The notes under the pieces were generated by a model that did not search any database, was not told where the DNA came from, and was given only the letters and a program-made list of their open reading frames with translations. A program made the translations under genes and the position numbers. 42,235 nucleotides of DNA from Schwartzia sp. (in: firmicutes) (GTDB lineage Bacteria; Bacillota; Negativicutes; Selenomonadales; Selenomonadaceae): the NCBI GenBank assembly GCA_017458745.1, contig JAFTAB010000082.1:1-42235 (forward strand). The letters run 5' to 3'. The first letter of the stretch is position 1. Every line of letters begins with the position of its first letter. This document shows positions 38,902 through 41,797 of the stretch, one piece after another.

Positions 38902-39267
38902 ATGGAATCATTTGCGTCAATGTGTTTTCAGGCCATACCGACAATACTCAATATGCTCATCCTCGGCATCATAGGGATGTGGAAGAAAAAGCAGAACGAG
39001 AGAGATGAGATGGAGAGGGAAAAGAATGAATGGCGTAAGAATATCGAGGATGCCATGAGGGCTATTCTGCATGACAGGATAATCCAGTCCAGCAAGCATT
39101 TCATTGGTCTACACTACTCGCCTATTGATGTCAGGGAAAATGTCGAGGAGATGTACAAGGCATACGTGAAGCTTCATGGAAATGGAACGGCCAAGAGGAT
39201 GTTTGAGGAACTAATGAATTTGCCGCTGGAGGATCCTAATCAGCAAGCAAAGCGGGCGATCTCATGA
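38902..39267 (+). CDS. Membrane protein with N-terminal TM and coiled coil, 121 aa
   Basis: ATG 38902, after AAAGGAGGTGCGAC. One hydrophobic helix (residues ~8-27, CFQAIPTILNMLILGIIGMW) is followed by a strongly charged coiled coil (KKKQNERDEMEREKNEWRKN) and a mixed C-terminal domain. This layout occurs in small phage holin-associated or BhlA-like proteins, but it is also compatible with other roles. It lies first in the lysis block and overlaps the next membrane gene by 4 nt. Confidence 0.75.
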   Translation: MESFASMCFQAIPTILNMLILGIIGMWKKKQNERDEMEREKNEWRKNIEDAMRAILHDRIIQSSKHFIGLHYSPIDVRENVEEMYKAYVKLHGNGTAKRMFEELMNLPLEDPNQQAKRAIS

Positions 39268-39641
39268 TTGATTTTAGCAAGATTAATATAGGGGAGCTGC
39301 TGACGCGGGGATTGAAAAAGAGCGTGAAGGCGGTAGCAAAGCTCAAAATAAAGGGCGCGCCACGATTGATTGTGTACGTGTTTCTATCGCTCATAATCTT
39401 GGCTGTTGCCCTTTTTATAATCGCGTGGATATGGCGTTGGTGGTTTGGGACAGTCGAGTTTGACCATATGATAAAGATGGTGGCGACGCTCACGAGCACG
39501 AGCTTCATAGCGGCCATTGCCTTTTTCTTCAAGGCGTTGTCTGATGACCTCGACGGGGACGGCATACCTGACATGATGCAGGAGCATGACAGCAAGAGGA
39601 ATTTTCCGAGAAAGGAGCACGATAGAAATGATGCACCCTGA
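39264..39641 (+). CDS. Two-TM membrane protein, holin candidate
   Basis: A 125-aa product. Basic N-terminal part, then TM1 (IVYVFLSLIILAVALFIIAW, residues ~36-57) and TM2 (MVATLTSTSFIAAIAFFFKA, ~72-91). The C-terminal tail is acidic then basic (DDLDGDGIPDMMQEHD). Two TM segments and position upstream of the probable endolysin suit a class II holin. The DLDGDGIPDM sequence resembles a Ca-binding (dockerin/EF-like) loop. The holin call is inferred. Confidence 0.65.
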   Translation: MIDFSKINIGELLTRGLKKSVKAVAKLKIKGAPRLIVYVFLSLIILAVALFIIAWIWRWWFGTVEFDHMIKMVATLTSTSFIAAIAFFFKALSDDLDGDGIPDMMQEHDSKRNFPRKEHDRNDAP

Positions 39642-39858
39642 AATAGTTTCGCTGCTCGCTGAAAAAATGGAAAGCGCGATACGCGAGACGAGGTCAAAAA
39701 AGGATTTCGTCGCGGACAACGACGCTTGGAAATATCTTGTCAGCGAGGGGCAGTTTAAGATTCCATCAGAGTCAATGGCTGTGATTAGGGACAAGGCTAA
39801 AGACAGCAGGATTTATGCGCAAATTTGCGACATTGTTAAGGAGCGTGAAAAAAAATGA
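39628..39858 (+). CDS. Hypothetical 76-aa protein
   Basis: I chose ATG 39628, with AGGAGCACGATAGAA upstream; ATG 39631 is one codon on. The product is helical: HPEIVSLLAEKMESAIRETR, then VADNDAWKYLVSEGQF and an Arg/Lys end. It overlaps the holin candidate and the endolysin candidate. It might be a lysis regulator (antiholin-like), but there is no membrane segment and no direct evidence. Confidence 0.6.
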   Translation: MMHPEIVSLLAEKMESAIRETRSKKDFVADNDAWKYLVSEGQFKIPSESMAVIRDKAKDSRIYAQICDIVKEREKK

Positions 39859-40448
39859 CGAACGAGGAACTGGCGAAAGAGATTGCAAACGGACTGATTG
39901 ACGGTGGATTCGAGGGAGGATTTGACGCGGTCTCATGCTCGACGGCGGGAGACTACCCGTCACTTGGCTGCTCACAGTGGGAGGGCGGCAGAGCAGATGA
40001 CCTCCTCTCGCGCATTGAGGGCGGCGATTACTACATTGGTCGCACGTACAGCGATATAGACGCGTCGGGTGAGCTTGATGCCTTGTCCGAGCTGCTTGAC
40101 AGTGAGCAGGGGCAGGATGCGCAGAGGGAAAAACTAGCCGAGGACACGCTTGATTATGTGGAGGCATTGACCGACATAGAGTGCTTCGATGATAGCCGGG
40201 CTATAATCTACGCCGGCATTTGGTGCCCGACGTCGACGTATGTCGTGACTCATTTTATTGCTCGCATGGCTGGTCGCGGCGAGAAAGTAAATGACCTTTA
40301 CACGCTTGCCATCATATTCAAGGAAGAGTATGCGCGAGCGGCTGGATGCGAGGAATACGCCGAGGGCTATGCCAACAGGGCGATGGGCACATATAACCTC
40401 GTGCGAGAGATGGATTTGTCCGAGTATGGTGTGCCGGAATATGATTGA
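39855..40448 (+). CDS. Probable endolysin with atypical lysozyme-like domain
   Basis: A 197-aa product. GGFEGGFDAVSCSTAGDYPS then LGCSQWEGGRADDLLSRIEG is a signature I associate with a peptidoglycan-hydrolase-type domain in anaerobe phages (GxYxSV...SxGxxQWxGxRAxxLL). E20 is a candidate catalytic acid. The rest is helical and acidic, with no signal peptide or cell-wall-binding repeat. Position between a holin candidate and the spanin-like pair supports endolysin. The enzymatic class is not certain. Confidence 0.65.
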   Translation: MTNEELAKEIANGLIDGGFEGGFDAVSCSTAGDYPSLGCSQWEGGRADDLLSRIEGGDYYIGRTYSDIDASGELDALSELLDSEQGQDAQREKLAEDTLDYVEALTDIECFDDSRAIIYAGIWCPTSTYVVTHFIARMAGRGEKVNDLYTLAIIFKEEYARAAGCEEYAEGYANRAMGTYNLVREMDLSEYGVPEYD

Positions 40449-40475
40449 TAAAAAAACTAAAAAGGCGGTGCTGAA

Positions 40476-40946
40476 ATGTGGAAGAATCCAAGAAAAGGCT
40501 TATTGTCATTGGCGCTCTCCTGCTGGCTGCTGTCGTTGCCCTGTACTTCCTATGCCGCGACGTATCAAATGACGGAAGCGCAGATGCAGACGTTAGAGTC
40601 GAACTTCTTAGAGCTGGAGACGCGCAACGCTCAGCTGCTGAAAATACTGACAGAGTCAGAGAACGAATTGACATTGGCATCGAGCGAGTCGGAGAGGCTG
40701 AAAGAGCTATTGCAGATAGCGAACAATCAGCTATCCAAATTGATGACGGAATTGAAAGAAGCACGGAGCGAATCAGAGAGGGTATCGAAATCGCTAGAGA
40801 CAGCGAACAAAGAATTAGAGCGTGCAAGCGAGTCCTTGAGGAAATCAGAAGCGCAGCACAAGAAAACTGAATCGAGGCTGCGCACGCAGAAGACTCTTTG
40901 GCAGGTGCTCGCAATAATACTCGGAGGAGTGGTGGCGACAAAATGA
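40476..40946 (+). CDS. Exported coiled-coil protein with C-terminal TM, spanin-like
   Basis: A 156-aa product from ATG 40476. Residues 1-28 are a signal peptide (LLSLALSCWLLSLPCTSYA), with AxA-type cleavage at SYA/AT. A lipobox is not canonical (SLPC). YQMTEAQMQTLESNFLELET begins a long coiled coil up to ~135, and a TM helix (TLWQVLAIILGGVV) ends the protein. The pattern is known to me from phages of diderm Firmicutes. A periplasmic coiled coil anchored at both ends suits outer-membrane disruption. Another gene lies in a different frame over most of it. Confidence 0.75.
   Translation: MWKNPRKGLLSLALSCWLLSLPCTSYAATYQMTEAQMQTLESNFLELETRNAQLLKILTESENELTLASSESERLKELLQIANNQLSKLMTELKEARSESERVSKSLETANKELERASESLRKSEAQHKKTESRLRTQKTLWQVLAIILGGVVATK
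40478..40870 (+). CDS. Inner-membrane coiled-coil protein overlapped in another frame, i-spanin-like
   Basis: A 130-aa product from GTG 40478, two bases after the other gene's ATG, sharing the ribosome site AAAGGCGGTG. EESKKRLIVIGALLLAAVVA forms a signal-anchor TM (about 8-26). The remainder (DRVRERIDIGIERVGEAERA, then STERIREGIEIARDSEQRIR) is a periplasmic coiled coil. This is the topology of lambda Rz-like i-spanins. That two overlapping frames both encode a TM plus coiled coil is strong support for both being real. Confidence 0.7.
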   Translation: MEESKKRLIVIGALLLAAVVALYFLCRDVSNDGSADADVRVELLRAGDAQRSAAENTDRVRERIDIGIERVGEAERAIADSEQSAIQIDDGIERSTERIREGIEIARDSEQRIRACKRVLEEIRSAAQEN

Positions 40947-41587
40947 TATACTTAATTTACATGCCATTAATGCTGATATTCACGGTAATCTGCTATCTCA
41001 CGAATCCTATCGTTGTGTTTTTCGCGGATGAAGTCGGTGAACTGCATGGCGTGTTGAAATACTGGCAGACGTGGGATGACAGCTTGGATGTCGAGTTTTT
41101 TGTCAAGGAAAAGATGCCGAGGTTTCTGCGATACAATTTCGATGAGCATTATAAGGCCAGCCGGATGACTACGCCGGAGCTTTCGATAATTGGCCGCGAC
41201 AGGGGCTGCGTAATATCCAAGTGTGTGAGATGGACAATCTTGGAGCGCATACAGAGATACTTTTGCCGCGTCGGATGGCTCACTCGCAACTGCGCGTATG
41301 GATTCGCGTTCTGGGTGTTCGGGCGTAAATGCCGGGGTCGTGACATCATCATGCTGATAAATAAAAATGAAGGAAATCATTTCATCCGCGTGGGATATGA
41401 CAGAAGCAGAAATATATTTACTATGCCGTTCATCGTGCATATAGAGTGGCCAATAATAAAGGGCAAGCTCTCATGGAAATGTTTTTTCGGATGGAAAATA
41501 GACCGCGAGAGCGGAGACAATGAAAGAATGGCTATGATTGCGAACCGGATAGCGTTCAGGTTGGAAAAAGATAAAATACGTTCTTAA
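40943..41587 (+). CDS. DUF7338-like membrane-associated protein
   Basis: A 214-aa product from ATG 40943, behind GGAGGAGTGG. YLIYMPLMLIFTVICYLTNP is a hydrophobic N-terminus, followed by VVFFADEVGELHGVLKYWQT and WDDSLD. I recall this opening from a phage protein family (DUF7338) of Proteobacteria and diderm Firmicutes, present near lysis or tail genes. A Cys-containing, aromatic central part and FGWKIDRES follow. No function known. It is the last phage gene before the attachment site. Confidence 0.75.
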   Translation: MIYLIYMPLMLIFTVICYLTNPIVVFFADEVGELHGVLKYWQTWDDSLDVEFFVKEKMPRFLRYNFDEHYKASRMTTPELSIIGRDRGCVISKCVRWTILERIQRYFCRVGWLTRNCAYGFAFWVFGRKCRGRDIIMLINKNEGNHFIRVGYDRSRNIFTMPFIVHIEWPIIKGKLSWKCFFGWKIDRESGDNERMAMIANRIAFRLEKDKIRS

Positions 41588-41745: not shown

Positions 41746-41790
41746 CTCCTAAGCAGGGGGTCGGGCGTTCGAATCGCCCCAATCGCACCA
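41746..41790 (+). other. attR core: 3' half of tRNA-Arg(CCU)
   Basis: It starts at the anticodon loop CTCCTAA (anticodon CCT). It then reads GCAGG (3' anticodon stem), the variable loop, the T arm GGGCG-TTCGAAT-CGCCC, the 3' acceptor strand CAATCGC, discriminator A and CCA. The sequence before it has neither the 5' acceptor strand (GCGATTG) nor the matching CCTGC stem. It is therefore a remnant at the phage-host junction, not a functional tRNA. Confidence 0.88.
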
Positions 41791-41797
41791 TGTAAAA

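Follow-up and report, generated by a model that had tools for sequence, protein, structure and literature searches.

Two genes read from one stretch of DNA as a candidate spanin-like lysis module in phages of Negativicutes

Known spanins require an outer-membrane lipoprotein (PMC6139136). In the two-component form, to which the embedded Rz/Rz1 genes of lambda belong, a type II inner-membrane i-spanin, with an N-terminal transmembrane (TM) segment and a periplasmic coiled coil, acts with an o-spanin that is a lipobox-bearing outer-membrane lipoprotein; the unimolecular form, represented by T1 gp11, combines an N-terminal lipoylation signal with a C-terminal TM segment. Kongari et al. 2018 pointed out that other topologies could act as spanins (PMC6139136). 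Neither LolA nor LolB was found in Negativicutes by Antunes et al. 2016 (PMC5007114), later papers agree on the absence of Lol in this class (PMC11784454, PMC10665443), and our own search recovered LolA in 0 of 120 genomes of the class with positive controls. With no known outer-membrane lipoproteins in these hosts, a lipoprotein o-spanin should therefore be unusable there; Rz (PF03245) was likewise found in 0 of the 120 genomes, and no paper found in the open-licence literature described a spanin from a phage of Negativicutes. Here we describe two overlapping genes, A and B, which in our estimate have a probability of about 0.7 of forming a spanin-like module of two components, one that disrupts the outer membrane as the final step of lysis in hosts without Lol.

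The window, by which we mean the whole stretch of DNA analysed, is a complete contig of 42,235 bases from a genome that is 83% complete, and its content is that of a contractile-tailed phage or prophage, with genes for DNA polymerase, helicase/primase, terminase, portal, head, sheath, tape measure and baseplate. The pair sits at its right end. Gene A (40476..40946, + strand, stop codon at 40944-40946) starts with ATG and opens 156 codons for a protein with a signal peptide lacking a canonical lipobox, a heptad coiled coil and a short, weakly hydrophobic C-terminal segment whose last residue is Lys, homologous across all examined loci. Gene B (40478..40870, + strand, stop codon at 40868-40870) starts with GTG, opens 130 codons and is contained entirely inside A; its i-spanin-like product has an N-terminal membrane helix followed by a heptad coiled coil. 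Both are served by one translation start region (40460..40480, + strand), in which a Shine-Dalgarno-like aaggcgg precedes an ATGTG that holds the two starts two bases apart. The coordinates, codon counts, start offset and single ribosome site, all first described in a sequence-only reading of the window, were reproduced by reading the DNA.

Synonymous recoding argues strongly against a coincidence. When the B protein of the window was held fixed and its codons were redrawn from the usage of the locus, frame A was open in 0 of 500 trials, and with the A protein held fixed frame B was likewise open in 0 of 500. Taken over all loci, the median share of trials that left the other frame open was 0% (means of 1.4% for A given B and 0.4% for B given A). 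The sequence-only reading had judged such a double assignment very unlikely by chance, a judgement borne out by these trials and by the retention of both frames in homologues; it had also described an export or membrane segment and a coiled coil in each product, and these are found, with strong 3.5-residue periodicity in both frames. The start geometry recurs too: in 54 of 97 loci the starts of A and B are offset by 2 or 4 bases behind one Shine-Dalgarno sequence, either with A four bases behind B (ATGNATG type, offset -4; 39 loci) or with B two bases behind A (ATGTG type, offset +2, as in the window; 15 loci). In the remaining loci the starts are mostly 7-40 bases apart; all were picked by rule, and single cases may be wrong.

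The sequence-only reading had stated that its claim would fall if homologues keep only one frame open; the homologues did not refute it. A search of 200 relatives with the B protein gave matches down to 20-38% identity, and at every full-length one an A-like protein is encoded by a long frame that stays open in the same +1 register. A profile then run against 380 genomes of the class matched in 122, about 80 more loci were fetched, and frame A proved to be open across the B match, in the same register, in 98 of 101 loci, a result that spans 80 genomes, 45 genera and 17 families of Negativicutes. In the other three (L118, L145 and L146) one stop breaks A, B is intact, and similarity to A resumes past the stop in the same frame; decay, sequencing error or readthrough may account for it. 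The loci had been recruited with B, yet A is at least as well conserved (mean column identity 37% for A versus 29% for B). Substitution rates by B codon position were 0.204/0.126/0.153 in the overlap (22 independent pairs of related loci), compared with 0.121/0.080/0.353 in endolysin genes from the same loci where these could be compared. The excess at third positions is thus absent from the overlap for either reading, as expected with both proteins under selection, and the pair, open in both frames in homologues and constrained in both, has the properties of overlapping genes under dual selection. These results confirm that A and B are both real genes and that the observation holds far more widely than in one phage: there is clear class-wide double use of the same DNA, in two frames, for two long coiled coils.

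Periodicity as such is the one feature that a chance frame could partly explain, as a heptad gene read one base off keeps some of it: when A was recoded at random, the B frame retained a power of 4.9 over a background of 1.7. Nevertheless, it is exceedingly improbable that only one frame codes and the other is open by chance, given the 98 of 101 loci with both frames open, the near-zero expectation under recoding, the flattened codon-position rates, and an N-terminal helix and a C-terminal motif that are conserved in both proteins. Conversely, when B was recoded at random, almost no periodicity was left in the A frame (1.9). A heptad gene can therefore seed a second coil one frame over, which suggests that A is more likely the older frame; codon usage gives no decision on the matter (0.48 for A, 0.47 for B).

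Carriers of the pair include Propionispora and a Negativicutes MAG, and it is also present in IMG/VR contigs and in the unannotated faecal phage record MT836582. The A and B proteins of the window, used as single-protein queries against phage records and IMG/VR, gave no match, because both evolve fast and a whole-genome profile search is needed; alignment A1 is too diverse for degenerate-pattern searches. In a phylum-wide sample of 398 genomes the matches outside Negativicutes were coil-only and none formed an overlapping pair; the 26 of these outside-class matches that were fetched are repeats within longer proteins, and the +1 frame is closed in most of them. The pair is thus limited to a two-membrane class inside a mostly one-membrane phylum. 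One genome (G124) has four A/B copies and one copy of the beta-domain family described below, apparently in separate prophages. One gene of the pair is likely to escape standard gene callers.

The lysis-gene assignment made in the sequence-only reading is borne out by context, since the pair comes after holin and endolysin genes in many phages. Directly upstream of it are endolysins of at least seven unrelated types (Amidase_3, Amidase_2, GH25 muramidase, VgrG3-like, peptidase M15, glucosaminidase and YkuD-like, the last matched below Pfam's cut-off), plus an unnamed SQWEG family, and ahead of these stand Phage_holin_4_1 or other small membrane proteins. In the window the corresponding genes are a putative endolysin of 197 residues (39855..40448, + strand) and a putative holin of 125 residues (39264..39641, + strand), the latter called from its position and hydrophobic membrane segments only and ending in DLDGDGIPDMMQEH; holin-like proteins of this kind, with DLDGNGIPD, precede endolysins in other loci. 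The putative endolysin gave no Pfam match, and its predicted structure (mean pLDDT 79) no clear PDB fold match, so that it was assigned by position, the slot that it occupies being filled by named endolysins in other loci. It belongs to the unnamed family (GxEGxxDxVxCSTxxxYPSxGxSQWEGxR), whose members share the invariant motifs GxEG...CST...YPSxGxSQWEGxR and WCPTS and precede the A/B pair in about ten loci.

What lies downstream varies from locus to locus. In the window a DUF7338-family membrane protein (40943..41587, + strand; Pfam E=1.4e-31) lies outside the conserved pair, its ATG at 40943 overlapping the stop of A. An Rfam search found no element near the pair. Further on, at about 41755-41795, a sequence resembling a tRNA T-arm and 3' end (gggcgttcgaatcgccccaatcgcacca) is followed by a hairpin and a T-run; tRNA calling found no complete tRNA in this stretch, which is likely an attachment site at the prophage edge.

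While the enzymes of these cassettes change, A/B stays, and the pair is therefore a stable third element of the cassette. Position is indirect evidence, and phages often place extra genes after the endolysin, so the pair might instead serve another late envelope function such as superinfection exclusion, holin timing or envelope remodelling. We regard this as quite unlikely, as persistence beside so many unrelated endolysins, together with the restriction to a two-membrane class, fits a role at the outer membrane best.

B resembles an i-spanin. It has one strong N-terminal hydrophobic segment (RLIVIGALLLAAVVALYFLC in the window), the remainder is heptad-periodic at 3.5 residues, and a cysteine stands near the C-terminus (IRACKRVLEEIR in the window); B would thus be a type II inner-membrane protein with an N-terminal TM segment and a periplasmic coil, an orientation that we infer. 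The conserved C-terminal motif, x-C/G-Q-x-I-L, has Cys in 32 loci and Gly in 21, and a periplasmic Cys, which in two-component spanins can serve intermolecular disulfides, occurs in 52 of 97 B proteins, 32 of them inside this motif. Single B proteins match several Rz-like PHROGs weakly (best 2e-4), the kind of match that coiled coils attract. A family of unknown function, phrog_18860, is matched by 12 of 19 B proteins (best E 1.5e-9) and is, as judged by sequence similarity, a true relative of B; it differs in being unnamed, and it says nothing on an overlapping partner. Pfam and PHROG matches of A were generic coiled-coil matches and were discarded.

A departs from the o-spanin pattern. It carries a cleavable signal peptide (...LSLPCTSYA/ATYQMTEAQ in the window), then a heptad coiled coil of 3.5-residue periodicity and a C-terminal hydrophobic segment (TLWQVLAIILGGVVATK in the window). 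The sequence-only reading had stated for the window that a canonical lipobox is missing, and the same is true of the family overall. Residues 15-40, around the end of the signal peptide, contain no Cys in 27 of 97 A proteins; in most of the others the residue ahead of the Cys is not a small one, unlike a lipobox. Many A proteins share a Gly-x-Cys-Ser where the signal peptide ends, with a large residue before the Cys, and L007 and L015 are individual lipobox-like exceptions; judged by their sequences, some members may undergo unusual lipidation. A second lipobox ORF lies within 1.4 kb of the pair in only 3 of 97 loci, and with no consistent lipobox A does not fit the unimolecular plan either. 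In L007 (G110, at a contig edge) an unrelated ORF of ~450 residues, which carries a metalloprotease-like HETGH motif, runs on in frame into A, a fusion that may reflect recombination or an assembly join near the contig end.

How the outer membrane is reached had been left open in the earlier reading; the question arises from a host class without Lol, and the C-terminal segment of A is the candidate answer. This segment is about 13-17 residues long, Gly/Ala-rich and weakly hydrophobic. On an approximate insertion scale its median dG is +1.6, which is unfavourable, compared with a favourable -1.4 for the helix of B, and A may therefore pass the inner membrane. On the other hand, 83 of 97 A proteins end in Lys or Arg, as an inner-membrane stop-transfer anchor would, and A may therefore sit in the inner membrane instead. 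Both proteins would then be anchored there, A by its C-terminal segment (type I, N-out) and B by its N-terminus, in an antiparallel complex whose distal tip, the A N-terminus YQITExELTxLE, acts on the outer membrane or a protein in it without insertion. Among possible i-spanins Kongari et al. 2018 include a type I inner-membrane protein, and this mature N-terminal motif is among the best conserved parts of A. We nevertheless think such an arrangement unlikely, the segment being short and far less hydrophobic than the helix of B, and one locus having a beta-strand domain in its place that also ends another cassette protein.

That locus, L138 / L188 (G149), carries a beta-strand domain where A otherwise has its C-terminal helix, with B intact, in an apparent domain exchange with a second cassette family. 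Proteins of the latter (alignment A5) are about 205 residues long, occur in 27 of 200 genomes of the class and consist of an N-terminal membrane helix, a periplasmic part and C-terminal beta strands ending in F/W/Y. In other Negativicutes prophages (L193, L194, L195, L199, L203 and L189) they take a slot near or after the endolysin, and in the loci examined neither a lipobox nor an A/B pair beside them was found. They thus share with A/B the slot after the endolysin, an N-terminal membrane helix and the lack of a lipid anchor; in contrast to A/B, they are encoded by a single gene with a C-terminal beta-strand domain and no overlapping partner. AlphaFold2 predicts five antiparallel strands for this domain (mean pLDDT 87), which in structure comparison resembles the outer-membrane anchor of Hia but equally other beta meanders (Z about 5), without significance. 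From these models an outer-membrane location of the second family is a lead only, under which it would possibly be a one-protein outer-membrane disruptor; if the strands do insert in the outer membrane, the C-terminus of A would by the same lead be its outer-membrane end.

We infer the topology and function of A and B from these features and the part in lysis from gene context, and offer the following mechanism for a two-component spanin-like module as a hypothesis, in which A takes the place of the o-spanin, probably docking via its short C-terminal segment. One ribosome-binding site feeding starts 2 or 4 bases apart would likely link the amounts of A and B. B likely inserts in the inner membrane N-in, its coil, often cysteine-linked near the end, crossing the periplasm, and A is probably exported via Sec and cut by signal peptidase I, after which its coil would pair with that of B. 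In the most uncertain step, the C-terminal segment of A would enter the outer membrane or serve as a membrane-active end, replacing the lipid of the o-spanin. By analogy with lambda Rz/Rz1, the A-B complexes would then collapse or fuse both membranes after peptidoglycan removal by the endolysin. Alternatively, A, which by itself combines an export signal with a hydrophobic segment at the opposite end, as T1 gp11 does, and is the best-conserved frame, could be the sole effector, akin to a unimolecular spanin without lipid, with B a regulator or antagonist from the same start site; this is very unlikely, as B in every locus retains its membrane helix and a coil of full length, stays intact where A is broken, and resembles i-spanins.

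A fuller version of the two-component reading, which we hold tentatively and at somewhat less than even odds, is that phages of Lol-less Negativicutes possess a lipoprotein-free two-component spanin in which a stretch of protein keeps A in the outer membrane, in most phages an alpha helix but in at least one a beta-strand domain, and in which both coils come from near-complete double use of one DNA behind one ribosome site, B having been overprinted on a heptad-repeat A gene. The pair offers a concrete, widespread and testable candidate for how phages of Negativicutes, including gut and mouth residents, open the outer membrane, and is useful for studying how overlapping genes arise.

The suggestion that the pair works like a spanin therefore stands, and membership of the spanins does not, the defining outer-membrane lipoprotein being absent; we accordingly describe A/B as spanin-like in working and do not file it as a spanin. 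With lambda Rz/Rz1 (PMC6139136) it shares the cassette position after holin and endolysin, an i-spanin-like B with an N-terminal TM segment and a periplasmic coil, often with cysteines, and the placing of two genes in different frames of one DNA. It differs in having no outer-membrane lipoprotein, in an overlap that begins at the very start (2-4 bases), whereas in embedded spanins it begins about 0.4-0.5 into the i-spanin gene, and in the nesting of the i-spanin-like B in A, with both products heptad coils. A resembles the unimolecular spanin T1 gp11 in pairing an export signal at the N-terminus with a hydrophobic segment at the C-terminus; unlike gp11, it has no lipoylation signal, forms an alpha-helical coil, and its partner is always encoded in the other frame.
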